49,648 nt of DNA, taken from positions 1-49,648 of the forward strand of contig JALENK010000060.1 in the NCBI GenBank assembly GCA_022767515.1. The letters run 5' to 3'. Position 1 is the first letter of the stretch. The number at the start of each line of letters is the position of its first letter. The notes beneath the pieces are model-generated. The model saw only the letters and a program-made list of their open reading frames with translations. It had not been told where the DNA came from and did not search any database. Both the position numbers and the translations under genes were made by a program. This DNA is from Clostridium sp. GTDB lineage: Bacteria > Bacillota > Clostridia > Clostridiales > Clostridiaceae. Positions 1-30,621 of the stretch are shown here, one piece after another.

Positions 1-1
1 C

Positions 2-139
2 TGTAAATTATCTGAAAAGGATGCGGATGCAGAGGTATATATTCGTGCAGTATCACCAGATGAGATTGAATATATAATATCAAAAGATGGAGAGCCAGAA
101 GAGGATGCAGAAGGTATAAGAGTTAGATTGGAAATGTAA
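2..139 (+). CDS. C-terminal end of an unidentified protein (partial)
   Basis: The frame is open from base 2 to a TAA at 137-139 and encodes the last 45 residues of a protein that begins before the window. The visible part is acidic, with D/E-rich stretches such as KDADAEV and GEPEEDAEG, and ends RLEM. No family can be recognised from this tail. It lies on the same strand as the riboswitch-controlled genes, but the promoter at 189-217 makes those a separate unit. It is called because the frame stays open to the window edge and has plausible codon use. Confidence 0.5.
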   Translation, partial: CKLSEKDADAEVYIRAVSPDEIEYIISKDGEPEEDAEGIRVRLEM

Positions 140-188
140 AAAGGTCATTTTAATAAAAATGTTAACATAATTGTAAAAATTGGACATA

Positions 189-217
189 TTGACTTTGTGC
201 GAATAACAGTATATAAT
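189..217 (+). promoter_or_regulatory. Sigma-A type promoter ahead of the c-di-GMP riboswitch
   Basis: The -35 box TTGACT (189-194) and a perfect -10 box TATAAT (212-217) are separated by exactly 17 bases. The expected start at about 224 falls just at the 5' edge of the riboswitch aptamer, which supports the call. Confidence 0.88.
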
Positions 218-224
218 TTTGATT

Positions 225-297
225 AAGATGATAGGGCAAAGCAGACGAAAGTCTGTGACGCAAAACTAAAGGGACTGTAAAATGTCAGCCAGTTGCA
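225..297 (+). promoter_or_regulatory. Class I cyclic di-GMP riboswitch (GEMM-I)
   Basis: The segment carries the GEMM-I landmarks in order: AGGGCAAAGC, a short stem capped by a CGAAAG loop (AGAC/GTCT), the invariant GACGCAAA, a CTAAAGGGAC arm, and the closing GCCAGTTGCA. The GAAA tetraloop and its receptor-like arm are the family's tertiary contact. An intrinsic terminator follows at 313-349. Bases 272-279 (GGACTGTA), which belong to the aptamer, are complementary to 315-322 (TACAGTCT), the 5' arm of that terminator. The predicted logic is therefore an OFF switch: without ligand this segment can act as antiterminator, and ligand binding sequesters it so the terminator forms. The logic is inferred from pairing only. 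Confidence 0.92.
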
Positions 298-312
298 GTA
301 TTGATTAAAATA

Positions 313-349
313 GGTACAGTCTTCTATATTGGGAGATTGTACCTTTTTT
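313..349 (+). terminator. Riboswitch-controlled intrinsic terminator
   Basis: A ten-base-pair stem (313-322 with 334-343, one G-T pair) with an 11-base loop is followed by six T residues (344-349). It lies 24 bases before the helix-turn-helix gene and is the expression platform of the c-di-GMP riboswitch. Confidence 0.85.
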
Positions 350-372
350 AGTTAGAAAGCGAGGTAATTAGA

Positions 373-567
373 ATGAATGGATATCTAAAAATCTCAGAAG
401 TAGCTAAAAAGTGGGGAATAAAAGAAAGAAGAATCAATACTTTATGTCTTGAAGGAAGAATAGAAGGTGCTGTTAAATTTGGTAATACATGGGCTATTCC
501 TGAGAATGCTAAAAAACCGCAAGATAAAAGAATAAAATCCGGAAAATATATCAAGAAAGACAAATAG
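373..567 (+). CDS. Small helix-turn-helix DNA-binding protein (excisionase/MerR-like)
   Basis: This 64-residue protein has the short winged-helix fold signature of the excisionase/MerR-like HTH_17 group: GYLKISEVAKKWGIKERRI at residues 3-21 as helix-turn-helix, then the typical wing pattern FGNTWAIP near residues 37-44. The C-terminal 20 residues are Lys-rich and could add DNA affinity. The ATG is preceded by GAGG (361-364) at 8-base spacing. It is the first gene after the c-di-GMP riboswitch and terminator, so c-di-GMP probably sets its level. It may regulate the downstream GTPase operon (137 bases away) or be its first gene. Similar small HTH proteins occur singly throughout Clostridia, so the target cannot be told from sequence. 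Confidence 0.8.
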   Translation: MNGYLKISEVAKKWGIKERRINTLCLEGRIEGAVKFGNTWAIPENAKKPQDKRIKSGKYIKKDK

Positions 568-704
568 TGTCACTGTAAAGTGATATTATTAATTTAAACA
601 AAGTGGGAGGTGAGTAAAAGGAGTATTTTGGGTGAGAAGTGTGAGTATGACGTATAAAAAAAGACAGTAATAGAAAGGCTTATGGTAGAAAGGAAGGGGT
701 TATT

Positions 705-2279
705 ATGGCAAATGAAACAATTAGTAAAAAAATGGACATTGCCTCAAGAATAAATGGTATTGCACAAGAGTTTAGAGAATTGATTAATACTGAATTTGTT
801 GAGTTTAGTACCTACTTTGGTGAGAAGATAGAGGAAAATGTTATTTCATTATTAAATGTTGATAAACCTAAAATTATGGTTTATGGAATATATAATAGTG
901 GAAAAAGTACATTAATTAATTCTCTATGTAAAGAAGAAGTGGCCGAAATGGCAGATCGACCAATGACAGATCAAATTACTGAATATGATAGAGGCGATTA
1001 TTATTTAGTTGATTCTCCTGGGGTTGATGCACCAATTCAACATGAAATGGTGACAGAGGAACATATTAATAAATGTCATATAATTTTATATGTAATTAGT
1101 AGTAAAGGATTGTTTGAAGACAGAACAAATTATGAAAAGTTGGCTAATTTGATAAAGAAGGACATTCCTTTTGTGATGGTTTTGAATGATAGAGGATGTC
1201 CAATAGGTAAGGATTGGACTGAAGAACAGAAAAAGAGGGCAAAATTTGATCATAATCAGGATTTAAAATTAATACAATATAAGATTATTGATAATCTTGT
1301 AAAAGTGAGTAATGACCCCAAAATAGCTGAGAAATATGAAGTTGTAATCCTTAATGCTAAGATGGCATGGATGGGAATAACAAAAGGCAAGCCTAAGTTA
1401 TATGATGTTAGTGGAATAGACTTTTTAGATAAGCGTATTAATCAATTATTAACTAATGAGTCAGCAATTGGATCAGTATTTAAACAACCCATAATAAATC
1501 TTAAAGAATGCTTAAATGAAGTAGTACAAATGATTACAAAAACTATGAGTGGAAATTCATCCGAAGATTTTGCAATGCGATTGCATACCCTTGAAAGAAA
1601 GAAGGATAATATTAGAGAGGATTTAAAAATATTAACACTACAAGCAGTTAATAGTCGTTTAGATGAATTGACAAAATCATATGTTAATGGGGATGCAGAT
1701 GTTTTTGAAACTGTCGCCAATTCAATATTTATGGATATTGAAGATAGGTATACTGCAAAAATCAATGAAATGTTAGTGTTTGTAGAGCGTAATTTTAAGG
1801 ATTTGAATTTGTTTATAGATAGTATGTCAAACCTATCTTTTGATGCTTCTGGGAAAAAAGGAAGTCAGTTAGCAGATAATGAGGAAGATGAATCTTCATT
1901 TGATGATGTAGACATACCAAAAGAAAAGACTGGATTTTTTGATTTCCTAAAATCTAGAAGTAGGAGAGAAAAAGAAAAACAAGAGCGTTTGGAAAGAGAA
2001 GCCAAAATTAGAAATGAGAGAGAACAGTATAGAGTCCAAGAAAACATTAGAAGAAAGCAAGAAGCACGTCAGCTTGCAAGTAGTGATTTAGATGTATTAT
2101 ATAGAGAATTTAATGCTATTGTAAATCAAGGATTAGATGAAAAATATGATGATTTAATTACACAGATTCAGCAAATAGATTGTTTAAATAAGCAAGTCAA
2201 AGCAGATGGTGAAAGACAGATGGAAAAGGTTATAAAAATAAGAAATTTGCTTGGAATACTTGAAAATGAAATAGGTTAA
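705..2279 (+). CDS. Dynamin-type GTPase 1
   Basis: A 524-residue large GTPase. G1 is GIYNSGKST (residues 61-69), G3 is DSPG (103-106) and the G4 position reads NDRG (161-164), which departs from NKxD. The GTPase domain covers about residues 50-240. The rest is predominantly helical and charged, including a Lys/Arg/Glu-rich coiled stretch at about 405-455 next to the hydrophobic GFFDFLK. This layout (N-terminal helix, G domain, long helical stalk) fits bacterial dynamin-like proteins, which bind and remodel membranes. The strong site AAGGAAGGGG sits 5 bases before the ATG. It is the first of three GTPases in the array. There is no signal peptide, so it should be cytosolic and membrane-peripheral. 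The dynamin assignment rests on architecture, not on close similarity. Confidence 0.8.
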   Translation: MANETISKKMDIASRINGIAQEFRELINTEFVEFSTYFGEKIEENVISLLNVDKPKIMVYGIYNSGKSTLINSLCKEEVAEMADRPMTDQITEYDRGDYYLVDSPGVDAPIQHEMVTEEHINKCHIILYVISSKGLFEDRTNYEKLANLIKKDIPFVMVLNDRGCPIGKDWTEEQKKRAKFDHNQDLKLIQYKIIDNLVKVSNDPKIAEKYEVVILNAKMAWMGITKGKPKLYDVSGIDFLDKRINQLLTNESAIGSVFKQPIINLKECLNEVVQMITKTMSGNSSEDFAMRLHTLERKKDNIREDLKILTLQAVNSRLDELTKSYVNGDADVFETVANSIFMDIEDRYTAKINEMLVFVERNFKDLNLFIDSMSNLSFDASGKKGSQLADNEEDESSFDDVDIPKEKTGFFDFLKSRSRREKEKQERLEREAKIRNEREQYRVQENIRRKQEARQLASSDLDVLYREFNAIVNQGLDEKYDDLITQIQQIDCLNKQVKADGERQMEKVIKIRNLLGILENEIG

Positions 2280-2312
2280 AAAGACTATGAGATTTTAGGG
2301 AGGGTGATACTT

Positions 2313-3209
2313 ATGAATAAACTTTCAGAAGGACAATTAGAAGTGATTGCTAAACTTTGCAGTGATGATTATGCAAAACGTTTAAGAGCACTTCAAGAAA
2401 AACAAAAAGATAATACAGTTAAAATTGTTAACACAGGAATGGTAAGTTCCGGAAAGAGCAGTTTATATAATACACTAATAAACAGTTCAGATGAGTTCTT
2501 TCCAACTGGAGCAGCAAGAACAACAATAAAGGCAAATTATTATGATTACAAGAATATTTCATATGTTGATACACCAGGAATTGATGTGAGAAATGAAGAT
2601 GATGCATTGGCATTTGATACAATTATCGAGTCAGATATTATTCTAATGATACATAATATTCGTACAGGTCCCTTAAATAAAAGTGAGGTTGAATGGTTGG
2701 AACAAATTGTTTCACGTTTGGGAAGCAAAGAAATGTGTAAAGCAAGAATAATATTTGTAGCGTCATGGAAAGATACTAGAGAAAAAGAAGACGATTATTT
2801 ATCATTTATGTCTGAGTTAAAGAATCAAGTTTTTGAAGTTATTGGAGTGGAAATACCATTCTTTGAGGTATCCGTAAAGAAATATCAACAAGGAATTGAA
2901 AAATCAAAGCAGGTGTTGATAGATAGTAGTGGAGTATTGATGTTGAAAGAATATCTAGAATACTATGCAACGGAATATTTAAAAAAGAAACAATCTATAG
3001 ATGAAGAAGAATATGTATCTTTGCTTAAAGAAATTAGCAATGAATTACAGGATATATATCAAGAAAAGGATAGACAGAAAGAAGAAATTATTGAAAATGT
3101 TAAAAATAAGCAGAAATCTAGAAAGAATGCATGGAAACAAGTATACGATTATTTTTCAGCTCAAAGAACAAAACTTACAAATTTACAAAATGAATTAAGA
3201 AATATTTAA
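2313..3209 (+). CDS. Dynamin-type GTPase 2, short form
   Basis: A 298-residue GTPase. G1 is GMVSSGKSS (residues 42-50), the switch I threonine lies in ARTT near 68-71, G3 is DTPG (86-89), and SWKD (151-154) occupies the G4 position. Residues 235-298 form a highly charged coiled coil (Lys/Glu/Gln-rich), replacing the long stalk of its neighbours. I chose the ATG at 2313 rather than the in-frame GTG at 2304, because the GGGAGGG ribosome site at about 2298-2304 overlaps the GTG and is well spaced for the ATG. It follows GTPase 1 by 33 bases and precedes the repeat protein by 21. Bacterial dynamins often act as unequal pairs, so it may be the partner of GTPase 1 or 3. Confidence 0.8.
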   Translation: MNKLSEGQLEVIAKLCSDDYAKRLRALQEKQKDNTVKIVNTGMVSSGKSSLYNTLINSSDEFFPTGAARTTIKANYYDYKNISYVDTPGIDVRNEDDALAFDTIIESDIILMIHNIRTGPLNKSEVEWLEQIVSRLGSKEMCKARIIFVASWKDTREKEDDYLSFMSELKNQVFEVIGVEIPFFEVSVKKYQQGIEKSKQVLIDSSGVLMLKEYLEYYATEYLKKKQSIDEEEYVSLLKEISNELQDIYQEKDRQKEEIIENVKNKQKSRKNAWKQVYDYFSAQRTKLTNLQNELRNI

Positions 3210-3230
3210 TTATAGAGGGAGAGGATTTTT

Positions 3231-3650
3231 ATGGCAGTAGTAGGACTAGCTTTAGGAGGACTTGCTATTGGGGCAGTTCTTTATGATGATCATAGCGATT
3301 ATAGTGATTATAGTAATTATAGTGACTATGATAATTACAGTAATTATTCAGATGCAGCAGAAAGAAGACAAAGACGTTTAGATGCAAAGCGTAAAGAAAT
3401 AAACGGTCAGGAACAGGAAGTTAATACATATAAGACTAACAATGTAAATGAATATTTAAAATCAGTTTCATTAAAAAATCAAAGTGGTGTAGAGGTTAGT
3501 GTTAATGAGGTTAAGAAGGATGGTGATGGAAAAATAGAGTATGACACTAAAGTAAATTCTGATCGAGAAAGTGCGGAAATTGTAGCACAGATGAAGCAAA
3601 TAGATAGTGTACTTGATAAGATAGATGAGATTTTGGAAGAAGGCGAATAA
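3231..3650 (+). CDS. Small protein with N-terminal hydrophobic segment and Y-x-[D/N] repeats
   Basis: A 139-residue protein of no known family. Residues 3-17 are hydrophobic and glycine-spaced (G5, G9, G10, G14), like a membrane-inserting glycine zipper. Residues 24-41 are six perfect tripeptides Y-S-D, Y-S-N, Y-S-D, Y-D-N, Y-S-N, Y-S-D, preceded by H-S-D. An Arg/Lys-rich helix (about 43-58), a polar middle, and an acidic C-terminal helix (about 113-139) follow. Its stop lies one base before the ATG of GTPase 3, so translation is probably coupled. Two radical SAM enzyme genes follow in the operon. The aromatic-x-Asp/Asn spacing matches the three-residue motif used by cyclophane-forming radical SAM enzymes, so it is a candidate substrate. 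An unmodified tyrosine-rich membrane adaptor is the plain alternative. Confidence 0.75.
   Translation: MAVVGLALGGLAIGAVLYDDHSDYSDYSNYSDYDNYSNYSDAAERRQRRLDAKRKEINGQEQEVNTYKTNNVNEYLKSVSLKNQSGVEVSVNEVKKDGDGKIEYDTKVNSDRESAEIVAQMKQIDSVLDKIDEILEEGE
3291..3353 (+). repeat. Coding tandem repeat, 9-base unit (Y-S-D/N tripeptides)
   Basis: Seven consecutive nine-base units encode H-S-D followed by six Y-x-[D/N] tripeptides. The codons vary silently between units (TAT/TAC, AGT/AGC/TCA, GAT/GAC). That suggests selection on the amino-acid pattern rather than a recent replication-slippage expansion. Confidence 0.85.
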
Positions 3651-3651
3651 C

Positions 3652-5412
3652 ATGGGAATGATGGATAGTATTAATGCTTTTGTTGATACAATGATTGCAG
3701 AACAGAGTAATTTTGAAAATATACAAAATGAAATTAGTAGACGAGAAGATGATGTTTTAGCTGTTTTGAAAGATTTGGAAATAAAAGAGAATGAAATCAT
3801 TACTCAACTAAAAAATGGTATTGCAAAAACAGAAGATGAAAATATGCAAGAGATATTTGATAAATCTTCAGAAAGCTTATATTTATCAATGTCAGAGGCA
3901 AATAAAAAGATAGAACAAGCTGTTAAAGGAATGACATTCATTAATGATTTTGAAAAACGTTTCACAGTATCTGTATTTGGAAAGGTAAAAGCAGGAAAGA
4001 GTTATATTGGAAATTTAATTATGGGACAGCCAGTTAGAAAAGCAGGATTAGCTAGTTCTTATGATAAATTATCTGATTTAACAGTTCATGTATATGATAG
4101 AGGAAAAATGTATGAGCAGAATAAATTAAGCACTGCTATTGAAGAAAAAGAATGCAATGGAGAAGAGTTTTATGTAGATAAAAATGAAGCTACAAGTACA
4201 ATTCAATGGGTTAATATCGGGGGAATGTGTTGGTTTGATACTCCTGGAATTGGTAGCGTTACAGTAGAAAATGAAGAACTTGCAAAAGAGTATGTAAAGA
4301 ACTCGGATTTAGTTATTTTTGCTTGCAATTCAGATGCGGCTGGAACACGACAGGAGTTTTTTGAAATACGTCAATTGTATGATATGGGTAAACCAATATT
4401 ACTTTTATTAACTCAGTCAGATGCATATGATTATGATGTTGATGATGAAGGGGAAGAGATAAGTGTTTTAGTTCCTAAATCGGATAAAGATCGTCAAGAT
4501 CAAGAAAACTATATGATAGAGACACTTCGAGAACAAGGAATGGAAGATGTTCTAAAATATGCAGATATTTTAACAGTATCAGCATTACTTGCGACAGAAG
4601 CATTAGCCAACAATAATGAAGAGATGTTTGAACAGAGTAATATTGGAAAGTTACTAGATAAGCTTACTAGTATTACAAAAAATGATGCTGCTGATATGAA
4701 GAGAAATACTCCTAAAAGTAGAATAAATGAAATGATAGACAGTATTATTTGTGATTTAAACACTGTGTCAAATGAAGTAGCTAAATATTGTGAAGGTATA
4801 GAAGATAGTAAGCGTAGTTTATCTGAAAGAAAGGATTGGATGGTTGAGCAAATTAGGGCGGCCTTAAATATAAAAATTCTTGAAATTATTGGGCAAGCAA
4901 AGGCAGAGGTTGAAAGTAGTGGTTCTAGTGTTTCAGAAGAAGAATTATCAAACAGAATAAATCAAGCTATAATAGATATAGTTCAAAAAGTATGTATTGA
5001 AGAAGCTATTAGTAATAGTGAGTCTATTCCAGATATTAATATAAAGTTAACAGGAATAGGAGATATGAAAATGCGAAGAGATAGTATTCCTTATGAACAT
5101 ATATCAGTCCGTCAGGTTCATCGTGATCCATCTGGTATATTTGAAAAAATTGGTCACTTCTTATTTAATAAGGAATATTATACATCTGAAGAACATACTG
5201 TAACAAAATATTCTACATTTGATATTGGTGTTAATGATAATGAAATTGCTCAAAATATTATTCTTCAGTTGGAAACTATTTTTTCAGGTACAGTAGAAAA
5301 ATATATAGAATATTTAACAAGGGGATATTATGAGCCTATAGAAATATTGCAAAGAAAGACAACAAACGAGATTGAAGAAACAATAATAAAACTAAAAGGA
5401 ATGAGAATGTAG
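3652..5412 (+). CDS. Dynamin-type GTPase 3
   Basis: A 586-residue large GTPase. An N-terminal coiled helical region (about 15-95) precedes the G domain: G1 GKVKAGKS (110-117), G3 DTPG (196-199) and TQSD (254-257) at G4. A long helical stalk follows. Near residues 495-506 the hydrophobic-aromatic patch GIFEKIGHFLFN is followed by YYTSEEH, a pattern seen in membrane-binding paddle regions of bacterial dynamin-like proteins. The ATG at 3652 is preferred to upstream in-frame starts because they lie inside the previous gene and because AGAAGG lies at suitable spacing. The stop TAG directly abuts the next ATG (5413). It is probably cytosolic and membrane-associated, and may act with the other two GTPases of the array. 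Confidence 0.82.
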   Translation: MGMMDSINAFVDTMIAEQSNFENIQNEISRREDDVLAVLKDLEIKENEIITQLKNGIAKTEDENMQEIFDKSSESLYLSMSEANKKIEQAVKGMTFINDFEKRFTVSVFGKVKAGKSYIGNLIMGQPVRKAGLASSYDKLSDLTVHVYDRGKMYEQNKLSTAIEEKECNGEEFYVDKNEATSTIQWVNIGGMCWFDTPGIGSVTVENEELAKEYVKNSDLVIFACNSDAAGTRQEFFEIRQLYDMGKPILLLLTQSDAYDYDVDDEGEEISVLVPKSDKDRQDQENYMIETLREQGMEDVLKYADILTVSALLATEALANNNEEMFEQSNIGKLLDKLTSITKNDAADMKRNTPKSRINEMIDSIICDLNTVSNEVAKYCEGIEDSKRSLSERKDWMVEQIRAALNIKILEIIGQAKAEVESSGSSVSEEELSNRINQAIIDIVQKVCIEEAISNSESIPDINIKLTGIGDMKMRRDSIPYEHISVRQVHRDPSGIFEKIGHFLFNKEYYTSEEHTVTKYSTFDIGVNDNEIAQNIILQLETIFSGTVEKYIEYLTRGYYEPIEILQRKTTNEIEETIIKLKGMRM

Positions 5413-6540
5413 ATGCTGACAATAATTGTGAAAGGAACTAATGGCTGCAACCTTGCTTGCAGCTATTGTTCATTAGGAGAAAAAAAAGATTTTAAATATG
5501 TTAATACAGCAAAATTAATAGAAATATTTGAGTATTCATGTAATTATGCAATAAGCAAGGGAGAAAATACGGTTACATTTATCCTACATGGAGGAGAACC
5601 TACACTCATCAGTATTCAAGTTTATGAAGAGGCAATAGAGTATATTAGAAAAAAGTTTTCTGATTTAGATATTAATTTTTCTATGCAATCGAATGGACTT
5701 ATGATAACAAATGAGTTCATTCGATTTGCAAGAAAAAATGATATTCATTTAGGAATATCTATCGATGGCTCACAGGAAATACACGATTCTGAAAGAAGAA
5801 CAAGTGGAGGAGAAGCAACTTATAAAAGAATAACAGATAATATTGATAAACTTTTAGAAGCAGGAGTTCAAGTTTCATGTTTAATGGTAATGACAAAAAA
5901 TGCAATTGGAAAAGGATATCATTATTTAGAATTTTTTGAAAAGCGAGGCTTACATTTAAAAATAAATCCACTTTTGAACTATGGTGAAGTGTATGATCAT
6001 CCAGAATTATCATTAGAACCAGGAGATTATGCTCACTATTTGATTGGATTATATGAATTTGTTATCGAAAATGATATAGAGATGACAATTGCTCCTACAG
6101 ATAATATTCTTAAAGCTATTATATATAAGCAAAAGCTTGGTGAGTGTACCTTCAATAAGGAGTGTAATAAGAATTTTATCTGTATTGATTATAATGGAAA
6201 TATTTAACCTTGTGGAAAGTTTTCTGATATGAATGAATTTAAAATTGGAGATATATATAGTACAAGCTTTGAGGAATTAATGGCCAAAATAAATGAGAGA
6301 CTATTTTCTCGTCGAAATAGGAATTTACCAGAAGCATGTGGGAAGTGTAATTTCTTAAGACTTTGCAATGGAGGGTGTAGTGCAGAAGCAGTAATAGATG
6401 GCGACTTTAATGAGAGGCCAATATTATGTGAAGATTATAAAATATTGTTTGAATATTTTAGTAAAGATGGATTAGTCTTATTAAAGAAGGAACTAATACG
6501 TCAAAAAAAACAATTGGAGGAGAAGAATATTGAGCTATGA
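5413..6540 (+). pseudogene. SPASM-domain radical SAM enzyme interrupted by a single in-frame TAA
   Basis: The N-terminal part (codons 1-264, ending at the TAA 6205-6207) has the radical SAM motif C12-x3-C16-x2-C19 and GGEP (60-63). The reading frame then continues without shift to 6540. The auxiliary-cluster SPASM motif is complete across the stop: C251-x10-G262-x4-C267, then C309-x2-C312-x5-C318-x3-C322 and C339. The TAA sits within the G-x4-C spacer, where relatives usually have Tyr or Phe, so TAT/TAC to TAA is a one-base change. Without the stop the enzyme would be about 375 residues, normal for peptide-modifying or sulfatase-maturing SPASM enzymes. It abuts GTPase 3 and overlaps the next gene. 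Options are recent inactivation, readthrough, translation as two pieces, or a sequence error. Confidence 0.85.
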
Positions 6541-8230
6541 ATTGTTATTAATTAATGTATCACGAGATCATAGTGGGTTTTCAGAATCATTTCGTGATAG
6601 TATTGGACAGTATGCTATAGCTTCTTATTTAAGACAAAGAGAATTTAAAGCATATGTTTTTTCAGGAGAGGTAAGTGATTGTAAGAAAGTAATACAAAGA
6701 GAGTTAGAAGAAAAAAGAACTAACATTGTAGGCTTTTATGCAGCGGCAGATAACATTAGGATAGTAGGTAATTTTATTAAATGGATAAAAAATACATATC
6801 CAGATTGTAAAACAATAATTGGAGGGCCACAAGCGGCGGGCTTAGATTATTCTTTTTTTTCAAAAACAAAGAATGATTATGCAATAATTGGAGAGGGAGA
6901 AATCCCTATGTATCAACTATTATCAGTTATTGTAGATGGTATTGGTGATATAGATAAAATACCATCACTTGTAAGATGTGACTCAAAAGAAAAGAGTTTA
7001 CTTGTGAATTCGGTTTCAAATGCTGTAATAGAAGATTTAGATAGCATTGGATTTCCGATGGTTGAAGATAATTTATTTGGAAGAGCTAGACAAGGGGAGA
7101 TTGTTGGAATAATTACTGGTAGAGGATGTCCATATAATTGCTCATTTTGTTATGAGGGTGCAAATGCAAAAAATGTTAGATATAGATCAATTTCTAATGT
7201 AATGGAAGAAATAGATTATATTAGAGAGCATAATAAAAAAATGAATTTTATTTCAATATATGATGATACCTTTACTCTTAATAAAAACAGAATTTTAGAG
7301 TTCTGTAATGAAATGAAAAAAAGAAATCTTTTATGGTTTTGTGAAGGACATATTTCTTTTGTAATAAATCAAAAAGATACATTACAGAAGATGATAGAGT
7401 CAGGACTAGCTTGTATCCAATTCGGAATTGAAAGTGGAGCTGATGAAGTTTTAAATGCCTACAATAAACATACAAATCATCAAATGATTTTAAATGCGAT
7501 AGAAATATGCAAAGAGCTTGGAATACATAGTATAACAGGAAACTTTATTATAGGTGGAGCGCATGAAACATATGAAACAATAGAAAAAAGTAAGAAATTA
7601 GCTAAGGAATTAATACATAAAGCAAAAGGAATTATTGAATTATATACAGTATATTTTGCACCATATCCAAATACAAAAATGGTACAAGAGCCTGAAGCAT
7701 TTGATATTAGTATTAATAAAGAAATTCAAGATATGAATATTAATACTATGAGAACACCAGTAGTAAGAACAAAGCAATTATCTAGAAATGAAATATATGA
7801 TATAAAACATGAGTTTGATGAATTCATAAAACATGAGTATGAGTGTGCAGCCAAAGAATCTACTAAAAGCGATATTTTACAAGGATTAACTAGAGATGGA
7901 AAAAGATTAGCACTAAACCCTACTTGGGAAAAGGTATATCTTAGCAAGCCTCATATAGGAGTATTTCTAGATCATATTACAGAAAAAGAGCAGGAGTTTA
8001 ATCCTAAATATTATATTCTTCGTACATTTGAGGATATTAAGTTTGATAATGAAAAATTAATTAGTGATGTTGGTGAATTTGAAGGATTAGAGAAAGATAT
8101 CTTATCACTTTCTACAGGTATATATACTGCAGAAGAAATAGCAAATATTTTTAATGTATCAATAGATGAAGTTGAAAGGATTTATTATAATCTTAATGAA
8201 AGATGTTTAGTTTATATGAGTGAGTTTTAA
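6530..8230 (+). CDS. B12-binding-domain radical SAM protein
   Basis: A 566-residue protein with the two-domain plan of cobalamin-type radical SAM enzymes. Residues 1-150 resemble the Rossmann-like B12-binding domain (IIGGPQAAG near 96-104, IIGEGE near 119-124), without a DxHxxG cobalamin-ligand motif. The radical SAM core starts at GRGCPYNCSFC, with C200-x3-C204-x2-C207. The final 50 residues look like a small winged helix (YTAEEIANIFNVSIDEVERI), possibly a peptide-binding or regulatory module. Family members methylate, cyclise or rearrange unactivated carbons. Translation starts at TTG (6530), 9 bases after GGAGG (6516-6520) and 11 bases inside the preceding SPASM gene, so the two enzymes are probably translationally coupled. 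Substrate unknown; the repeat protein of the operon is the obvious candidate. Confidence 0.83.
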   Translation: MSYELLLINVSRDHSGFSESFRDSIGQYAIASYLRQREFKAYVFSGEVSDCKKVIQRELEEKRTNIVGFYAAADNIRIVGNFIKWIKNTYPDCKTIIGGPQAAGLDYSFFSKTKNDYAIIGEGEIPMYQLLSVIVDGIGDIDKIPSLVRCDSKEKSLLVNSVSNAVIEDLDSIGFPMVEDNLFGRARQGEIVGIITGRGCPYNCSFCYEGANAKNVRYRSISNVMEEIDYIREHNKKMNFISIYDDTFTLNKNRILEFCNEMKKRNLLWFCEGHISFVINQKDTLQKMIESGLACIQFGIESGADEVLNAYNKHTNHQMILNAIEICKELGIHSITGNFIIGGAHETYETIEKSKKLAKELIHKAKGIIELYTVYFAPYPNTKMVQEPEAFDISINKEIQDMNINTMRTPVVRTKQLSRNEIYDIKHEFDEFIKHEYECAAKESTKSDILQGLTRDGKRLALNPTWEKVYLSKPHIGVFLDHITEKEQEFNPKYYILRTFEDIKFDNEKLISDVGEFEGLEKDILSLSTGIYTAEEIANIFNVSIDEVERIYYNLNERCLVYMSEF

Positions 8231-8244
8231 GCAAGGAGGGTATT

Positions 8245-9102
8245 GTGCTAAACAACGATTACAAAAAGAAAGCAATTAAAGATCTTCAGAAGGTTTATAC
8301 AGAATATATCAATGTATTTAAAAAATCAATAAAAGATATGGAAAGATTACAGAGTACTCGTAACATAGCTATAAGAACCATTCAATATGTTGAAAGATAT
8401 GTAATATCATTAGCTAATAGACCAAGAGAATTCGATACTAAATTAGGTGAAATAAAAGTAAGATATATAAAATTTCAAAATACATGTAAGCAAATACAAG
8501 AAATTCAAAGAAAAGAAATTAAACAACAAGTTAGAAGAGGATTGGGTGTAGCAGGTACTCTTGGAGGTGTAGGAGTTGCTACTCTAGGTCCAACAACTGC
8601 CATGTCTGTAGCTATGACATTTGGAACTGCATCTACAGGTACAGCAATTGCTTCTTTATCAGGTGCTGCTGCTACAAATGCAGCACTTGCATGGCTAGGA
8701 GGTGGAGCACTTGCAGCCGGTGGGGCAGGAATGGCTGCTGGAGAGACTATTATGGCTCTTGCAGGTCCAATTGGTTGGGTGATTGGAGGGGTTTCATTAG
8801 CAGGTAGTTTAATTGCAATAAATATGTCTAATAAGGATATTGCAAGAAAAACAGAGCAGAGTATTGTAACAATAAAAAAAGAAATGGAACGAATGAAGGA
8901 AATAGATGTACAAGTACTTAGCTGGAATGAAGAAACAAAGCAGTTATCAAATGCAATTATGAATAGACTGAATTATATTAGAAGAAATAGAAAACTTAAT
9001 TACACAATGTTTAGTGATAATGAAATGAATGAGTTAGTTAGTATATTTAATTCAACAGAGGTATTATCAAAATTATTAGGCAAGACTATAGGAAGGAAGT
9101 AA
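8245..9102 (+). CDS. Glycine/alanine-rich membrane-hairpin protein
   Basis: A 285-residue protein. Residues 1-95 are charged and probably helical. Residues about 100-193 are a long Gly/Ala/Thr-rich hydrophobic region (for example LGGGALAAGGAGMAAG at 151-166 and ALAGPIGWVIGG at 171-182), typical of glycine-zipper hairpins that insert into membranes. Residues 195-285 are again charged and helical. There is no signal peptide. The GTG start follows AAGGAGGG (8233-8240). Such hairpins occur in pore-forming toxins, membrane-scaffolding proteins and some immunity-related GTPase partners. Here it sits 14 bases after the radical SAM gene and 6 before the next gene. I infer a membrane target or effector of the GTPase array. 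No named family is recognised. Confidence 0.75.
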   Translation: MLNNDYKKKAIKDLQKVYTEYINVFKKSIKDMERLQSTRNIAIRTIQYVERYVISLANRPREFDTKLGEIKVRYIKFQNTCKQIQEIQRKEIKQQVRRGLGVAGTLGGVGVATLGPTTAMSVAMTFGTASTGTAIASLSGAAATNAALAWLGGGALAAGGAGMAAGETIMALAGPIGWVIGGVSLAGSLIAINMSNKDIARKTEQSIVTIKKEMERMKEIDVQVLSWNEETKQLSNAIMNRLNYIRRNRKLNYTMFSDNEMNELVSIFNSTEVLSKLLGKTIGRK

Positions 9103-9108
9103 TCTAAG

Positions 9109-10512
9109 ATGGGATCATATGAGTTAACGTTAGATAAGCAAGCAAAAGAAGTTGATTGGTCAAATGATAAATGTGACAAATATGATTATATGATAGCAGC
9201 ATTTTGTGGGTTGGTAGCCGGTATTGTAGATACTTTGTTTGTTGGAGCACCTGGACAAGGAAAATTAGGACAATTTACAGACAAAGCTGCAGATGAAATG
9301 GTTCAAAAGATTGCTATTATGTTGTGGAAGGGAGATGGTAGAAGCTCAGTAGAGGGAAGACCTAAATCTGCCCCTAATACGCTTGAAAAGGCAATATCAT
9401 ACTTAGAACAATCATTTCCAGTTAACTATGATGCAAGATATGCAGCAGATCTTTTGAATACAAACGGTGTACTTTCTTCTATGGCGCCAAAGAACCATCA
9501 TTTTTTATCATTGGCTCATTCTCCAGATATAGTTGGATTATTATTTTCTATATTGGATCAGTTCACAGGTTTAGCATCGTTTATTGATAAAGGGAAATTG
9601 ATTAGACTTATTCCTATTAAGGATGCAAGAAATAATAAGGTTATGTATATGCAAGGAACAAATATACAGTCAAAACTATTTTGTGGAGTATGCAATTGGC
9701 TAGGACATCTTGCATCTGATTTGTGTGGCTCAAGTTCTACAAGACGAGTAGGTAAAACCGGAAGAGGTGCCGGATTACCTATGCCATTTTATAGTTTGTT
9801 TTTAATAATGGATTTTAAAAATTATGATAGTAAAAGTTTTTCAGATATTGCTATAAAAATATTTGAAGAAGGTTATGACTTAAGACATGGAGCAGCAATG
9901 GCGATTCCTGTACTTATTGAGGAGTTATCAATCAAAGTTATTTGGACATTTAAAAGGCATTTTTATGAAAAAAAAGATTGGAAAGAGTGTATTCCATCAG
10001 TAAAGCATGCAGATTTACGAATGATGTTATTAATAGGTAATGCAGCACTTTGCTTAGTAGATGGAATTGATGCAGGTATCCGTACAAGTTTAAATGGTGG
10101 TAATCCGATAACATTGGTATTGCATTTGAACCTTATAGCTTGGGGAAGGTTGATAATGCTAGTTTTTAGGGAATTAAGACTAAGATATGGTAGTATTATT
10201 ACTCAAGCAGTATCAAAATATTTAGCAAAGATTGGATTGAATGATGCATATGCGCTTAAACAGTATTATGAAAGAATGAATGCTCTAGATCAAAGGCTAG
10301 AAGTAATGTTAAAAGATTTTGTGGTAAATGTTGAAAGAGAATATAAGTCCTTTATGGATGGGATGAATAAGAGTTTAAATCCAGCAATGGGGACAGCTGA
10401 GCAGAGAAGAATTGCCAGCGTTGAGTTTGCAAAAAATCAAGGAATTTCTAATGACAGAATTATACGAACACCTGAGGAGTTAAGAGATTGGCTTAGAAAA
10501 GGGGGAAAATAA
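9109..10512 (+). CDS. Unrecognised membrane-associated protein
   Basis: A 467-residue protein that I cannot assign. A hydrophobic segment at about 27-50 runs into GAPGQGKLG (46-54), which resembles a P-loop but lacks the Ser/Thr after Lys and so is probably not an NTPase site. Other conserved-looking features are GQFTDKAADEMVQKIA (54-69), the basic/glycine stretch GSSSTRRVGKTGRGAG near residues 208-223, and two further hydrophobic segments at about 305-330 and 335-357 that could cross the membrane. The C-terminal 100 residues are charged and helical. Its stop is one base before the WYL regulator start. Position in the operon suggests it works with the GTPases and hairpin protein, but the function is unknown. 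Confidence 0.7.
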   Translation: MGSYELTLDKQAKEVDWSNDKCDKYDYMIAAFCGLVAGIVDTLFVGAPGQGKLGQFTDKAADEMVQKIAIMLWKGDGRSSVEGRPKSAPNTLEKAISYLEQSFPVNYDARYAADLLNTNGVLSSMAPKNHHFLSLAHSPDIVGLLFSILDQFTGLASFIDKGKLIRLIPIKDARNNKVMYMQGTNIQSKLFCGVCNWLGHLASDLCGSSSTRRVGKTGRGAGLPMPFYSLFLIMDFKNYDSKSFSDIAIKIFEEGYDLRHGAAMAIPVLIEELSIKVIWTFKRHFYEKKDWKECIPSVKHADLRMMLLIGNAALCLVDGIDAGIRTSLNGGNPITLVLHLNLIAWGRLIMLVFRELRLRYGSIITQAVSKYLAKIGLNDAYALKQYYERMNALDQRLEVMLKDFVVNVEREYKSFMDGMNKSLNPAMGTAEQRRIASVEFAKNQGISNDRIIRTPEELRDWLRKGGK

Positions 10513-10513
10513 T

Positions 10514-11512
10514 ATGTCAAGTAAACAATCAAAAAATTCCCGCACTTTAGATATGTATGCTCGTCTATGTGAGGGGAAGGTAATAAATAAATTAGAGGAA
10601 TCACAGCGTTTTGGTGTGGATGAGCGTTCAATTCAACGTGATATTGATGATATTAGAGCTTTTCTAGATAATCGTTTAACTGAGTATAAAACTATTGAGT
10701 ATGACCGTAATAAAAAAGGTTTTGTTATGACCTATTCAGAAGGCTCTGATATGACAAATAGCGAGATTCTTGCTGTTACAAAAATACTTCTTGAAAGTCG
10801 TGCATTTACAAAGAAGGAGCTTAATGAGATTTTAAATAAGATGGTTAAGGGATGTGTGCCACTAAAGAATATGAAGCTTGTTAGTGAACTCATTGCTAAT
10901 GAAAGATATCATTATGTAGAGCTTCATCATAAATCTATGTTGCAGGATAAGATGTGGGAGCTTGGTGAGAATATCAAGGAGCATAATCTTCTTGAAATAA
11001 AGTATACTAAGGCAAATGCGGTGGAAGAATCTATAAAGAGAATTATTGAGCCTGTGGGTATTATCTTTTCAGAATATTACTTTTATTTAAATGCATATAT
11101 TGATATTCAAGATGAGAATGGAAAGTATGTACATAAGTATGATTATCCTGCAATATTTCGTTTAGACAGAATCAAGTCTTATAAGAGAACTGGAGAAAAA
11201 TTTCAAATTCCTTATGCCTCAAGATTTGAAGAGGGAGAATTTCGAAAGAGAGTACAGTTTATGTATGCAGGAAAGCTTATGAATATTCAATTGAAATACT
11301 ATGGAGCTAATCCAGAACCAATACTTGATAGGCTTCCTACAGCTAAAATCATAAAACAGGACAAAGAGGAAACTTTAATTGAAGCAGAAGTATATGGTAA
11401 GGGAATAGTTATGTGGTTACTTAGTCAGGGAAGTAATATAGAAGTAATAAAGCCTGATTCTCTAAGACAGGAAATGAAACAAAAATTATTGGAGATGCTA
11501 GATAGATATTAA
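10514..11512 (+). CDS. WYL-domain transcriptional regulator
   Basis: A 332-residue regulator. The N-terminal DNA-binding domain (about 8-60) contains SQRFGVDERSIQRDIDDIR, the recognition helix pattern of DeoR/HTH_11-type WYL proteins. Residues about 135-230 form the WYL domain (an SH3-like ligand-sensing fold), and a WCX-like C-terminal region covers about 240-332. WYL regulators sense nucleic-acid or nucleotide ligands and often control phage-defence or DNA-damage loci, for example BrxR and CapW. It is the last gene of the dynamin/radical SAM array, starting one base after the previous stop, and is followed by a terminator. It is a good candidate autoregulator of this operon; no operator could be identified. 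Confidence 0.9.
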   Translation: MSSKQSKNSRTLDMYARLCEGKVINKLEESQRFGVDERSIQRDIDDIRAFLDNRLTEYKTIEYDRNKKGFVMTYSEGSDMTNSEILAVTKILLESRAFTKKELNEILNKMVKGCVPLKNMKLVSELIANERYHYVELHHKSMLQDKMWELGENIKEHNLLEIKYTKANAVEESIKRIIEPVGIIFSEYYFYLNAYIDIQDENGKYVHKYDYPAIFRLDRIKSYKRTGEKFQIPYASRFEEGEFRKRVQFMYAGKLMNIQLKYYGANPEPILDRLPTAKIIKQDKEETLIEAEVYGKGIVMWLLSQGSNIEVIKPDSLRQEMKQKLLEMLDRY

Positions 11513-11536
11513 AGGCTCAATTCGTGTGATTTTATG

Positions 11537-11567
11537 GCATTCAAGCATTTATGCTTGGATGCTTTTT
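11537..11567 (+). terminator. Intrinsic terminator ending the dynamin/radical SAM operon
   Basis: An 11-base-pair stem (11537-11547 with 11552-11562, one G-T pair), a TTTA loop and five T residues lie 25 bases after the WYL gene. Confidence 0.85.
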
Positions 11568-11625
11568 GTATGTATAATTTTTCTGATTTTGTTAATACTA
11601 TAAGTTAGGGAAGCATAAAACAATA

Positions 11626-11653
11626 TTGAGTTTAATTATATATATGATAGAAT
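11626..11653 (+). promoter_or_regulatory. Possible promoter of the ABC exporter operon
   Basis: TTGAGT (11626-11631) and TAGAAT (11648-11653) are separated by 16 bases, about 75 bases before the exporter gene. An overlapping TATGAT (11643-11648) is an alternative -10. The match is moderate. Confidence 0.4.
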
Positions 11654-11729
11654 AATACTGGTAGAATTGATTGTTTCGAGGAAATTTTATCTATGTGTTT
11701 CATAAGCATACAAAGGAGGATGGGCAGAG

Positions 11730-13451
11730 ATGAAAATAGTATTGCAGATTTTAAAAAAATACAGAAAAGAATGTATTTTAGCACCACTTTTTAAGATGCT
11801 TGAAGCTATATTTGAACTTTTAGTTCCATTAGTCGTAGCTGACATAATTGATAATGGTATAGGTTTTAGCGATAAGCCTTACATAATTAAGATGGCGCTT
11901 GTTTTGGTTCTGCTTGCAGCAATTGGTTTAGTAGCCTCTATTACAGCACAGTATTTTGCGGCAAAAGCGGCAGTTAAGACAGCAACTTCATTAAGGAGTA
12001 AATTATTTAGACATATTCAATATTTATCATTTACTGAGCTTGATAAAGTAGGGACATCTACTTTAATTACTAGAATGACTAGTGATATAAATCAAGTACA
12101 AAATGGTATTAATTTAATGCTTAGATTATTTTTAAGGTCACCATTTATAGTATTTGGTGCTATGATAATGGCATTTACGATTGATATTAAGTCAGCTCTT
12201 ATTTTTGTTATTACAATTCCAGCTCTTAGCTTTGTAGTATTTGGAATTATGAAAATAACAAGACCACTTTATAAGGGAGTGCAAGCTTCTCTTGATAAAG
12301 TGCTTGGAGTTACTAAAGAAAATCTATCAGGAATTAGAGTGATAAGGGCATTTAATAATGAGAAGAAAGAAGAAGAGGAATTTTATTCAGCTAATAATAA
12401 GCTAACAGCAATTCAAGTTTTAGTTGGAAAGATATCTGCACTTATGAATCCACTTACATATGCAATTATTAATGTATCAATAATACTTCTTATTTGGACT
12501 GGAGCTGTAAGGGTTAATATAGGAGAGCTTTCTCAAGGTCAGGTAATAGCATTATATAATTATATGTCTCAAATTTTAATTGAGCTTATAAAGCTTGCTA
12601 ATTTAATTGTTAGTGTTACTAAAGCAGTAGCTTGTGCTAACAGACTAAAAGATGTTTTTGAAGTGAATAGTTCAATGGCAGAAGGTACTAGAGATAAGTT
12701 TAATCAAGATAGTGAGTATGAAGTTGAATTTAATAATGTTTGCTTTAAGTATGCGACATCAGGTGCAGATGTACTTACAGATATTAATTTTAAGGTTAAA
12801 AAGGGTGAAACAATAGGAATAATAGGAGGGACTGGATGTGGTAAGTCTACATTAGTTAATTTAATTCCTAGGTTTTATGATGTAACCTCAGGAGAAATTT
12901 TAATAAATGGAGTAAATGTTAATGAGTATACATTTGATGCTATTAAGAAAAAAGTATCTGTTGTATTTCAAAAAACTCAATTATTTAAGGGAAGCATTAA
13001 GACTAATTTGCTTCTTGCAGATAAGAATGCAAGTGATGAGGCAATTAATAAAGCACTAGAAATTTCTCAGTCAAAGGAATTTGTAGAAAAGAAGGAAGGG
13101 AAGCTTGACTCTGAGGTTGTGCAGATGGGTAAGAACCTTTCAGGTGGACAGAAACAGAGATTAACTATTGCAAGAGCATTAGTTAAACAGTCGGATATAT
13201 TAATTTTAGATGATAGTGCATCTGCGCTTGATTATTTAACAGATTCAAAGCTTAGAAAGGCTATTTTGGAGATGGAAAATTCACCTACAGTATTTATTGT
13301 ATCTCAAAGAACAGCCTCAATAATGCATTCAGATAAAATAATAGTTCTTGAGGATGGAAAGATAGCTAGTATTGGCACTCATGAAGAATTGTTAAAGAAT
13401 TGTGATGTATATAAAGAAATTTATGATTCTCAGTTCAAAAAGGAGGCCTAG
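11730..13451 (+). CDS. ABC exporter half-transporter, subunit with degenerate ATPase site
   Basis: A 573-residue protein with six N-terminal transmembrane helices (about 15-300) and a C-terminal ABC ATPase domain. Walker A is GGTGCGKST (near 365-373) and the signature is the canonical LSGGQ. However, Walker B ends LDDSAS with Asp in place of the catalytic Glu, and the switch histidine is replaced (VSQRT instead of AHR). This is the non-hydrolysing subunit of an asymmetric exporter of the BmrC/TM287 type, paired with the next gene four bases later. Such pairs export drugs, peptides or lipids from the inner leaflet of the membrane. The start follows AAAGGAGG. The substrate cannot be told. Confidence 0.92.
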   Translation: MKIVLQILKKYRKECILAPLFKMLEAIFELLVPLVVADIIDNGIGFSDKPYIIKMALVLVLLAAIGLVASITAQYFAAKAAVKTATSLRSKLFRHIQYLSFTELDKVGTSTLITRMTSDINQVQNGINLMLRLFLRSPFIVFGAMIMAFTIDIKSALIFVITIPALSFVVFGIMKITRPLYKGVQASLDKVLGVTKENLSGIRVIRAFNNEKKEEEEFYSANNKLTAIQVLVGKISALMNPLTYAIINVSIILLIWTGAVRVNIGELSQGQVIALYNYMSQILIELIKLANLIVSVTKAVACANRLKDVFEVNSSMAEGTRDKFNQDSEYEVEFNNVCFKYATSGADVLTDINFKVKKGETIGIIGGTGCGKSTLVNLIPRFYDVTSGEILINGVNVNEYTFDAIKKKVSVVFQKTQLFKGSIKTNLLLADKNASDEAINKALEISQSKEFVEKKEGKLDSEVVQMGKNLSGGQKQRLTIARALVKQSDILILDDSASALDYLTDSKLRKAILEMENSPTVFIVSQRTASIMHSDKIIVLEDGKIASIGTHEELLKNCDVYKEIYDSQFKKEA

Positions 13452-28845: not shown

Positions 28846-30621
28846 ATGGCGGATATATTTGGAAAAATACTAAGTAAGCTAAGAAAGAATAATGATAGTA
28901 GTAAAGAAATTAAATTAGAAAATTATATTACAGATAATAATTCTAAGGATAATTATGGAATATTATTTAATGATTTAAAAAAAGAGTTAAAGGATTCTTA
29001 TGTTGATATAGAAAAGATGCCAAGATTTTCAGTTCATTCAGGTATATTACACTCTATGTATGATGAATTAGTTAAACCAGTAGTATTAACAGTTATGGGA
29101 AAGTATACTATTGGTAAAAAAACCTTTATTAATAGTTTTATTGGTGAGGATATATTAAAAAGTAATGCTAAGTATGGGGTTTCAGTATTTATTAAAATAT
29201 CTTATGGACCTAAGAAGAAAGTTGTTGCTTATTATAGAGATAATACAGAAAAGGAAGTTGACTTAAAGGATTTAAAGTCAGTGACAGTAGATACAAGTGG
29301 TAAAAATACATTAAGAAAAACTATTAAATATGTAGAAATATTTTTACCAAAAAAAGTACTTAAGGAAATTACAATAATTCAAACTCCAGGTTTAGATATA
29401 GAGGATAAAAACTATATTAAGGAGATAAAAAGCTATTTGTCAGTAAGTGATATTGCATATTGGATTAGTGCTTATGGTAAAAGGGTTTCTGTAAACGAAA
29501 TAAATACACTTAATGAGGTTAGTAAAGTTATAAAGCCTTCTCTAGTAATTAATAGAATAAATGAAATAGATGAAGAAGAGGAAGAATTTGAAAAAATATT
29601 AAAAGAACTTAAAGAAACTCTATCAGGAAAAATTGAGGATACCCTTATGATTGATACAGTGTTAGTGCATGAAAATTTAGCTGAGGAGTATTTAGGAGAA
29701 GATTCAAGTTATTTAAATGAGAATACAAAGAAGCTACAAAGTGCATTATTAAAGAGGATTGAAAGTATTAAATCAAAATATATTCATAGTAATATAAATA
29801 TGTTTTTTGAAAAGGTAGTACCTGATTTTAATGATGCAGTAAAAGATTTAAATGAATTAAAAGAATTAATGTCAAAGGAAGAGGAAATAAGAGAATCGCA
29901 TGAAGATAGAAAAAAATATTTAGAGCCATACCATGAAGAGGGAGTGAAAAAATTAAAGAAAAAAGAAGGTATTACTACTGACTTTGATATGATCTTTGAT
30001 GCATGGAAAAATAAGAATGTAAAGGAATATGAAAAAATAGAAGCTCCTTTAGCATACATAAAGAGTATGGAAGATTTGCTTAGGGAGCTAAAGGTCAATG
30101 AAAGAATTATTTACAATATAAAATCATCTTCTGAAACTTATCAAGATATTAAAAATCAATTAGTCATAATTGATAATAAGTACTTAGAATTTGCTGATAA
30201 GGAAAAGGAATTAACTACAGAAGCAGATGAGCTTAATAAAAAATTAGATGAATATTATGCAAGTGGTATTCATAAAGAAGATGATAAAGAAGATGATTGG
30301 GATGAAACTAGAAAAGAATTAGAAAAGTGGAGAAGAGACCTAAATAAAAGAATTAGAGGTGTAGAACTTCGATATATGGCTTTTGAAGAGGATAGAAGAG
30401 ATCAATTCAAGAGAGTTGCAGTTATGAACCAAGAAATATTTGGATATATTGATGAATATAATAAAATTCTTTCTGTAAAGATTGATGAACAGCAACAGTA
30501 TATAAATGAATGTAATAATAAAATTAAGAAATATAATGGAGAATATGATACTTTAAGAACCCAAGTATCTAAGGTTGAGAAAATTCTAAATGAATTTAGA
30601 AAAATATTTGAAAAAAAATAA
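28846..30621 (+). CDS. Dynamin-like GTPase with degraded nucleotide-binding motifs
   Basis: A 591-residue protein with dynamin_N layout: G domain at about 75-300, then a long charged helical region (300-591) dominated by Glu/Lys coiled coil. The motifs are altered: G1 reads GKYTIGKKT (85-93), with Lys where Ser/Thr should contact magnesium; G3 is QTPG (179-182) instead of DTPG; and NRIN replaces NKxD. This suggests weak or no GTP hydrolysis, possibly a scaffold or regulatory partner. It is separate from the three-GTPase array at 705-5412 and sits next to a signalling pair, with the unknown 243-residue protein and AIM24 downstream. No signal peptide. Confidence 0.75.
   Translation: MADIFGKILSKLRKNNDSSKEIKLENYITDNNSKDNYGILFNDLKKELKDSYVDIEKMPRFSVHSGILHSMYDELVKPVVLTVMGKYTIGKKTFINSFIGEDILKSNAKYGVSVFIKISYGPKKKVVAYYRDNTEKEVDLKDLKSVTVDTSGKNTLRKTIKYVEIFLPKKVLKEITIIQTPGLDIEDKNYIKEIKSYLSVSDIAYWISAYGKRVSVNEINTLNEVSKVIKPSLVINRINEIDEEEEEFEKILKELKETLSGKIEDTLMIDTVLVHENLAEEYLGEDSSYLNENTKKLQSALLKRIESIKSKYIHSNINMFFEKVVPDFNDAVKDLNELKELMSKEEEIRESHEDRKKYLEPYHEEGVKKLKKKEGITTDFDMIFDAWKNKNVKEYEKIEAPLAYIKSMEDLLRELKVNERIIYNIKSSSETYQDIKNQLVIIDNKYLEFADKEKELTTEADELNKKLDEYYASGIHKEDDKEDDWDETRKELEKWRRDLNKRIRGVELRYMAFEEDRRDQFKRVAVMNQEIFGYIDEYNKILSVKIDEQQQYINECNNKIKKYNGEYDTLRTQVSKVEKILNEFRKIFEKK

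Follow-up and report, generated by a model that had tools for sequence, protein, structure and literature searches.

Among the described bacterial systems, several dynamin-like GTPases are encoded in one operon in LeoABC, in paired dynamin-like proteins such as Cj-DLP1/2, and in the DynA system of Bacillus subtilis. LeoABC, according to PMC4159319, has a split GTPase: LeoC (206 amino acids, a truncated GTPase) supplies the P-loop and a C-terminal anchor, LeoB supplies Switch 2, and LeoA follows. A bacterial dynamin delays phage lysis in B. subtilis (PMC8844932). Here we analyse a locus of Clostridium sp. that likewise encodes several dynamin-like GTPases in one operon. The stretch analysed (contig JALENK010000060.1, 49,648 nucleotides, hereafter the window) is one contig of a 2.17 Mb, 113-contig genome assembly that is 88.75% complete. 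Nine genes, g1 to g9, called as open reading frames (ORFs), occupy positions 705–11512 of its forward strand, on which the control elements before and after them lie as well. Set against the bacterial dynamin systems, the conserved unit found here adds a separate anchored repeat protein (g3) and two genes for radical S-adenosylmethionine (SAM) enzymes (g5 and g6).

Two further groups of described systems resemble parts of this locus. As in the case of the triceptide maturases YxdB, HaaB, YhhB and OscB, a SPASM-type radical SAM gene stands beside the gene of a protein with tandem aromatic-x-Asp/Asn motifs at i/i+2 spacing. According to PMC11002830, YxdB is a SPASM enzyme that joins C3 of Tyr to the β-carbon of Asp at i and i+2, and at the same spacing HaaB crosslinks His to Ala and YhhB Tyr or His to Arg. 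Unlike in the triceptide systems, the putative target here looks anchored, structural and retained in the cell, and lies beside GTPases. The last genes of the locus resemble Bunzi (BnzAB) and PDC-M09, g8 matching BnzB and g7 matching PDC-M09A; Bunzi also includes TerB (PMC10952713).

The reading that we put forward, and trust about as much as we doubt it, is that of a membrane-acting, horizontally moving GTPase machine with a stapled g3 scaffold, which would serve in defence against phages or membrane damage. If true, this would be, to our knowledge, the first known case of a membrane-GTPase machine with a structural component made by the peptide-stapling chemistry of radical SAM enzymes.

Conservation of the six-gene core

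A scan of genome contigs with a profile made from the g4 alignment returned 41 loci, 16 of which have radical SAM genes after g4. Of these 16, one duplicates a region of the same metagenome-assembled genome (MAG; L079), and three run into the end of their contig (L067, L068 and L076). All 12 complete loci (L063–L066, L069–L074, L077 and L078) carry the core on a single strand and in the order g1-g2-g3-g4-g5-g6; L070 and L071 are near-identical, and L074 has an additional g2-like gene before g4. The hosts of the core belong to Bacillota, Candidatus Riflebacteria and Synergistota, with one (L077) labelled only "Bacterium". Amino-acid distances of g1, g2, g4, g5 and g6 over the 13 loci that have all five genes (the close pairs L070/L071 and L072/L073 included) correlate with r of 0.918–0.969, and for each of the ten gene pairs none of 2000 permutations gave as high a value. 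That the nine genes are chance neighbours without joint function is hardly credible: the idea holds for the loose link to g7–g9, finds nothing in its favour in the core, and is refuted for genes 1–6 by their order and co-divergence across three phyla.

In the g4 tree, the locus of the window forms a group (support 99/98) with L063 (Clostridiaceae), L064 (Eubacteriales) and L065 (Riflebacteria). Horizontal transfer is suggested by the nesting of a Riflebacteria locus among those of Bacillota. Flanking genes are common mainly to the close pairs L070/L071 and L072/L073; elsewhere, the common flanks at 60 bits or more are the tail genes, a patatin gene, a WYL gene and a few others. In a sister genome (G047), the 12 kb before the homologue (76% identical) of the transporter gene that follows the operon contain no homologue of g1–g9. 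This is not a clean empty site, as bases 1–720 of the window have no clear match there either. On this comparative evidence, genes 1–6 are a conserved unit that is apparently mobile.

A preliminary description of this DNA had listed nine same-strand genes, which the ORF calls bear out, with gaps from an 11-base overlap to 33 bases; with the starts chosen here, on which these values depend, the range is from a 26-base overlap (g3/g4) to 24 bases. It had also proposed to test whether the genes recur in the same order in other genomes, which holds for genes 1–6 and fails for genes 7–9, and had regarded the whole as a system without characterised precedent. No description of the gene 1–6 combination was found in the literature searched, which included few subscription papers and does not prove absence, so the core looks undescribed; the tail belongs to a known (candidate) defence module.

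The three dynamin-type GTPases of that description are confirmed by Pfam MMR_HSR1 and Dynamin_N matches above gathering score. The first, g1 (705–2279, 524 amino acids), matches both families and has an invariant P-loop and DSPG motif in a 12-sequence alignment. The small GTPase g2 (2304–3209, 301 amino acids) also matches both, and its P-loop and DTPG motif are invariant among 15 sequences, as are those of g4 (3625–5412, 595 amino acids; Dynamin_N) among 16. Their top PADLOC matches are LeoA or LeoBC at 67–84 bits (LeoA at 84 bits for g1, LeoBC at 78 bits for g4), and the g4 profile had no match at E 0.001 among solved structures. The locus is not LeoABC proper: in contrast to the split-GTPase layout of that system, g2 has both the P-loop and DTPG in a single chain. 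The extra gene of L074 (8835–10019 of that locus) encodes another g2-like GTPase, whose C-terminal part resembles g3.

The repeat protein and the radical SAM enzymes

The product of g3 (3231–3650) is 139 residues long and belongs to no Pfam or PADLOC family. It consists of a hydrophobic Gly-rich stretch (residues 1–17, mean hydropathy 2.34 across the 17 residues), a [YH]x[DN] block (residues 18–41) and a charged C-terminal part. The block is made up of eight contiguous units, YDD HSD YSD YSN YSD YDN YSN YSD (3282–3353), and is matched by a tandem DNA array of period 9 at 3287–3347. The preliminary description had noted a small repeat protein, which is indeed present (as are the Gly-rich hydrophobic protein g7 and the WYL/WCX regulator g9), and had overlooked its likeness to a radical SAM substrate.

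The repeat block occurs together with the radical SAM genes. At loci with these genes, all 13 complete g3 proteins that were tested have three to eight [YHWF]x[DN] motifs in their first 75 residues, in each case in excess of shuffled sequences (P of 0 to 0.015, 2000 shuffles). The small proteins encoded at the same position in loci without radical SAM genes have zero to two motifs in 12 of 12 cases (P of 0.075 to 1). Left out of this comparison were L071 and L079 (near-identical to L070 and from the same MAG region as L074, respectively), L086, L087 and L092 (near-identical to L085), and those with no small gene by the distance rule or with a contig-end cut (L067, L068, L088, L089, L091, L093, L095–L098, L100, L103 and L043). 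Two small ORFs before a broken g4 in L094 were not counted, and L099, with six motifs and a contig that ends inside g4, is in neither group. For L042, for L084 (which is similar to L042) and for L090, the starts chosen probably lie too far upstream.

One loss within the radical-SAM clade is in keeping with this division. L075 is nested in the radical-SAM clade beside L076 (g4 tree, support 99/98), no remnant of either radical SAM gene was found in its 21.8 kb, and its g3 keeps the C-terminal part but has lost the anchor and the repeats. The association between g5 (and g6) and the repeat block is thus strong in pattern and drawn from few independent events, and we consider g3 quite probably the substrate of g5.

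A different explanation is that the radical SAM enzymes have another target, such as a GTPase, a lipid or a cofactor, and that the YSD block is a flexible hydrophilic linker. The small proteins of most radical-SAM-less loci do combine an anchor with a Ser-rich or Asp/Ser-rich stretch at this position, and the small number of independent events behind the correlation also suits a linker. Against it, the i/i+2 aromatic-acidic phase is strict and is held in most blocks despite divergence, with Y and H as well as D and N interchanging and the codons differing; repeats and radical SAM genes are lost jointly in L075; and SPASM chemistry is known on such motifs (PMC11002830). We regard the linker explanation as quite unlikely. 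Since a known SPASM enzyme makes Tyr-x-Asp three-residue cyclophanes, g5 most likely staples the [YH]x[DN] block of g3, and the product would probably, with considerable room for doubt, be a three-residue cyclophane that connects Tyr or His to Asp or Asn.

The gene g5 (5413–6540), identified as a SPASM radical SAM peptide maturase from Pfam and NCBIfam matches and an alignment of relatives, is interrupted in the window. Both radical SAM enzymes of the preliminary description, one of SPASM and one of B12 type, are present, but its assumption of an intact SPASM gene missed an in-frame TAA at 6205–6207, which divides g5 into pieces of 264 and 110 residues just ahead of the SPASM cysteines. The gene is uninterrupted in 14 of the 15 relatives aligned, the remaining one (L076) being cut by a contig end, and the cluster cysteines are invariant in 13 relatives. 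The copy in this genome may be a broken gene or an assembly error.

The g5 proteins of 13 relatives match peptide-crosslinking and sulfatase maturases, and the best NCBIfam matches include the families DynA (first for the member shown), YhhB and GrrM/OscB. The nearest solved structures are those of anaerobic sulfatase maturases. A viperin-like identity was rejected, as the pVip match (48 bits) is outscored by much stronger matches to peptide maturases. Viral contigs scanned with g5 contained only distant radical SAM genes (21–36% identical).

The second enzyme, g6 (6530–8230, 566 amino acids), matches Pfam Radical_SAM with a score over the gathering threshold and B12-binding with one slightly short of it. 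Its nearest relatives outside the system, 33–36% identical and present in three of 391 genomes besides its own, sit in clusters that combine small peptide genes with several genes for B12 radical SAM enzymes; the small peptides are presumably of the type labelled "Nif11-type". In three such loci (L055, L056 and L057), four B12 radical SAM genes, one of which encodes 1193–1211 amino acids, are clustered with a small peptide gene.

These clusters, together with the membership of g5 and g6 in groups that contain peptide-modifying radical SAM enzymes, would suit a cluster for an antibiotic or signal of the ribosomally synthesized and post-translationally modified peptide (RiPP) class, in which g3 is cleaved to a modified peptide and the GTPases provide export or immunity. 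We find this improbable. In contrast to triceptide systems, genes 1–9 contain no protease or exporter family in Pfam, NCBIfam and PADLOC scans, and a secreted RiPP was dropped for that reason. Moreover, g3 retains its hydrophobic anchor and, outside the repeats, a conserved C-terminal part, and the radical-SAM-less relatives mostly retain an anchored small protein of the same layout.

Tail genes, relatives and the case for defence

The tail starts with g7 (8245–9102), which matches PDC-M09A at 307 bits in PADLOC and has a conserved Gly/Ala-rich hydrophobic centre in a four-sequence alignment. The following g8 (9109–10512) had been called an unknown protein; it has no Pfam match, but relatives do exist, PADLOC giving BnzB at 404 bits. 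This match spans residues 20–372 (353 residues) and positions 158–493 of the 504-position model, so that, in contrast to Bunzi, only the second part of BnzB is covered, and the protein ends in a PDC-M09B-like tail (30 bits across residues 361–462, the C-terminal ~100 residues only). The PDC-M09 pair is hence represented by g7 for M09A and only weakly for M09B. A complete Bunzi system is not present, as no TerB match was found among g1–g9 at E 0.01 (Pfam); a TerB-like neighbour just below gathering score occurs in L029, a relative without the core. The last gene, g9 (10514–11512), encodes a transcriptional regulator with Pfam WYL and WCX matches above gathering score.

A further difference from Bunzi and PDC-M09 is that g7 and g8 are joined to the dynamin core, at some loci only. 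M09A-like and BnzB-like genes directly follow g6 in the window, L063, L064 and L065; L066 and L068 have a gene for a patatin-like phospholipase in this place, and in L069 an M09A-like gene lies 3.5 kb downstream. A WYL gene lies 3' of the core in the window and L063 and precedes g1 in L070 and L071, and L066 has an upstream 90-residue fragment similar to the start of g9. Relatives of g8 occur in 18 of 206 genomes of the family, counting its own. Sixteen of the other 17 regions were fetched, some of them short, and contain no g1–g6 homologue at E 0.001; seven have an M09A-like gene and four a WYL gene. Therefore, g7–g9 also exist apart from the core. By these comparisons, genes 7–9 are a detachable, exchangeable tail from known (candidate) defence families, and the PADLOC families BnzB and PDC-M09A are now tied to dynamin GTPases.

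A scan of viral contigs with g7 found four loci (L104–L107) in which an M09A-like gene is followed by an ORF of 473–514 amino acids; in L104, the one of the four tested, this ORF is PDC-M09B (504 bits). In some of these viral contigs, the pair is on the strand opposite to many of its neighbours. Another M09A-like gene (73 bits), in Allochromatium (L102, 13155–14255), adjoins a PDC-M40B-like gene and is downstream of a radical-SAM-less GTPase cassette.

Such cassettes are cousins of the core. Klebsiella-type plasmids carry a GTPase, a 163-residue anchored protein, a dynamin and a GTPase, and the same four-gene cassette lies between type III CRISPR genes in Photobacterium. The cassette of Klebsiella and Photobacterium plasmids and of proteobacterial chromosomes, for which no name was found, shares with the locus of the window the homologues of g1, g2 and g4 and an anchored small protein encoded between the last two; it differs in its order (g2-small-g4-g1) and in having neither radical SAM genes nor a [YH]x[DN] block. 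Matches of g4 were found on 37 of 72,556 plasmid records, ~29 of them nearly identical, and E. coli genomes had no near match to the Klebsiella cassette. Five Acetobacteraceae loci have only g4 and g1. At least 5 of 24 radical-SAM-less loci adjoin CARF or type III CRISPR genes (L058, L081, L082, L089 and L091), a lower bound because candidates for CARF neighbours were chosen by inspecting the beginnings of ORFs before being tested. The 24 comprise L080–L098 and L100–L102 (22 loci), L042 and L058; L075, L099, L103, L043, L044 and the plasmid loci L059–L062 are outside this set. The GTPase/dynamin cassettes beside CARF nucleases or type III genes possibly form a CRISPR-linked dynamin module of their own.

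The preliminary description had proposed a role in membrane stress or phage defence, with which the genomic context agrees but which it does not prove. Part of this context is that homologues of a small helix-turn-helix ORF upstream of g1 (373–567) precede DNA methyltransferase genes at 3 of 11 loci. Our own estimate is that defence is the more probable role, by a modest measure. A general system for membrane maintenance, vesicles or trafficking, whose GTPases would bring about membrane tethering or fusion in ordinary physiology or under stress, is unlikely in our judgement. It draws on the proposal that LeoABC aids vesicle release, deletion of leo roughly halving the vesicle cargo of enterotoxigenic E. 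coli (PMC4159319). It also draws on the cyclic di-GMP (c-di-GMP-I) riboswitch aptamer upstream of g1 (225–300; Rfam RF01051, 59.4 bits against a gathering score of 35) and on a defence signal in the flanks that is moderate. Riboswitches for c-di-GMP are linked to lifestyle genes. Against trafficking stand the partners of the M09A/BnzB and patatin kinds, the CARF and type III CRISPR neighbours of the cousins, some carriage on plasmids, and the rarity of g4: it was found in 3 of 225 genomes of the order (E 1e-10) and 1 of 398 of the phylum (1e-15), own genome counted in both, with three to five candidates scored per genome, so that some relatives were possibly missed.

In the stapled-scaffold reading, the dynamin-like trio g1, g2 and g4 would work with the small membrane-anchored scaffold g3. 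The g5 enzyme would turn the tandem [Y/H]-x-[D/N] block into a row of Tyr/His-to-Asp/Asn cyclophanes, and g6 would add a second modification to g3, perhaps methylation. We infer that stapling could stiffen the block into a rod, with the membrane anchor on one side and on the other the charged part, which would meet the GTPases. Upon infection or envelope damage, the GTPases would assemble at the anchored rods, and the membrane would be sealed or disrupted. Interchangeable co-effectors would act downstream (BnzB-like and M09A-like here, patatin elsewhere), with expression controlled by WYL and, in this genome, possibly by the c-di-GMP riboswitch. A more specific version is offered tentatively: an immune dynamin machine whose rod, made by RiPP-type radical SAM stapling as an intracellular structural modification, might set the geometry or the trigger of an assembly of the three GTPases, with exchangeable effectors and c-di-GMP gating in this lineage.

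Several observations weigh against the stapled-scaffold reading. Unless the stop codon comes from an assembly error, the interruption of g5 may have cost this genome the stapling step. The scores of g5 are far under every curated cyclophane maturase cut-off shown (NCBIfam), which again sets it apart from the triceptide systems. A single deep split in the tree accounts for most of the correlation between repeats and radical SAM genes, to which one secondary loss is added; the locus of that loss, L075, also has a g1 without its GTPase part, so that it may be decaying. No g4 match was found in 50,697 phage records, and scans of viral contigs with g4 and g8 found no relative. The riboswitch was found in none of 15 relative loci, two of which (L067 and L068) have no region before g1. 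Predicted structures of g8 and g7, made from four-sequence alignments, are too poor to use (mean predicted local distance difference test scores of 41 and 54). Finally, a PADLOC scan of the flanks of radical-SAM loci gave a moderate defence signal: matches to BnzB (3), M09A (3), WYL (2), mads_3 (3) and PD-T4-6 (2), and single ones to NERD helicase, PDC-M10 and others. Ten families have two or more flank proteins, five of them from the BnzB/M09A/WYL tail and five being mads_3 and PD-T4-6; the scan took in 98 of 126 listed proteins (those of L075 left out), with 25 of 53 families shown and no control set.

The relatives with and without the radical SAM pair have the same kinds of GTPases and different linkers, and so provide a natural comparison. 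Bacterial dynamins in immunity are little understood, and this system and its cousins, some beside type III CRISPR genes, make such a role testable.

Control region and other genes of the window

A sigma-70-type promoter-like site (189–217, 11 of 12 consensus matches) stands just 5' of the riboswitch; it is weak evidence alone, because positions 1–12000 contain 62 such sites against 65.8 in shuffled sequences. The aptamer is followed by a terminator-like hairpin (312–344; bases 305–352 fold at −22.9 kcal/mol, z −7.0) and by a 64-residue helix-turn-helix (HTH) ORF (373–567) that resembles HTH_17 (23.4 bits, below the Pfam gathering score of 27). Another terminator-like hairpin comes after the last gene (11536–11563; three such sites against 2.6 in shuffles). 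The unit may therefore reach beyond g1–g9, from the promoter-like site, riboswitch and HTH ORF to the hairpin at 11536–11563.

Homologues of the HTH ORF occur in 12 of 68 genomes of the genus, its own included, and the riboswitch is absent at all 11 fetched loci. At three of these (L189, L190 and L191), a DNA methyltransferase gene lies 3' of the homologue, of the C5 type twice (one an 88-residue piece) and HsdM once; a WYL gene adjoins at one of the 11 and a response regulator gene at four (one of these four regulators was tested). Small HTH ORFs before methyltransferase genes are perhaps regulators of defence operons in the genus.

Elsewhere on the contig, a further dynamin-family GTPase gene (28846–30621; Pfam Dynamin_N, 46.9 bits) is followed by an ORF of 249 amino acids with no Pfam match and then by an AIM24-family gene (31500–32174).

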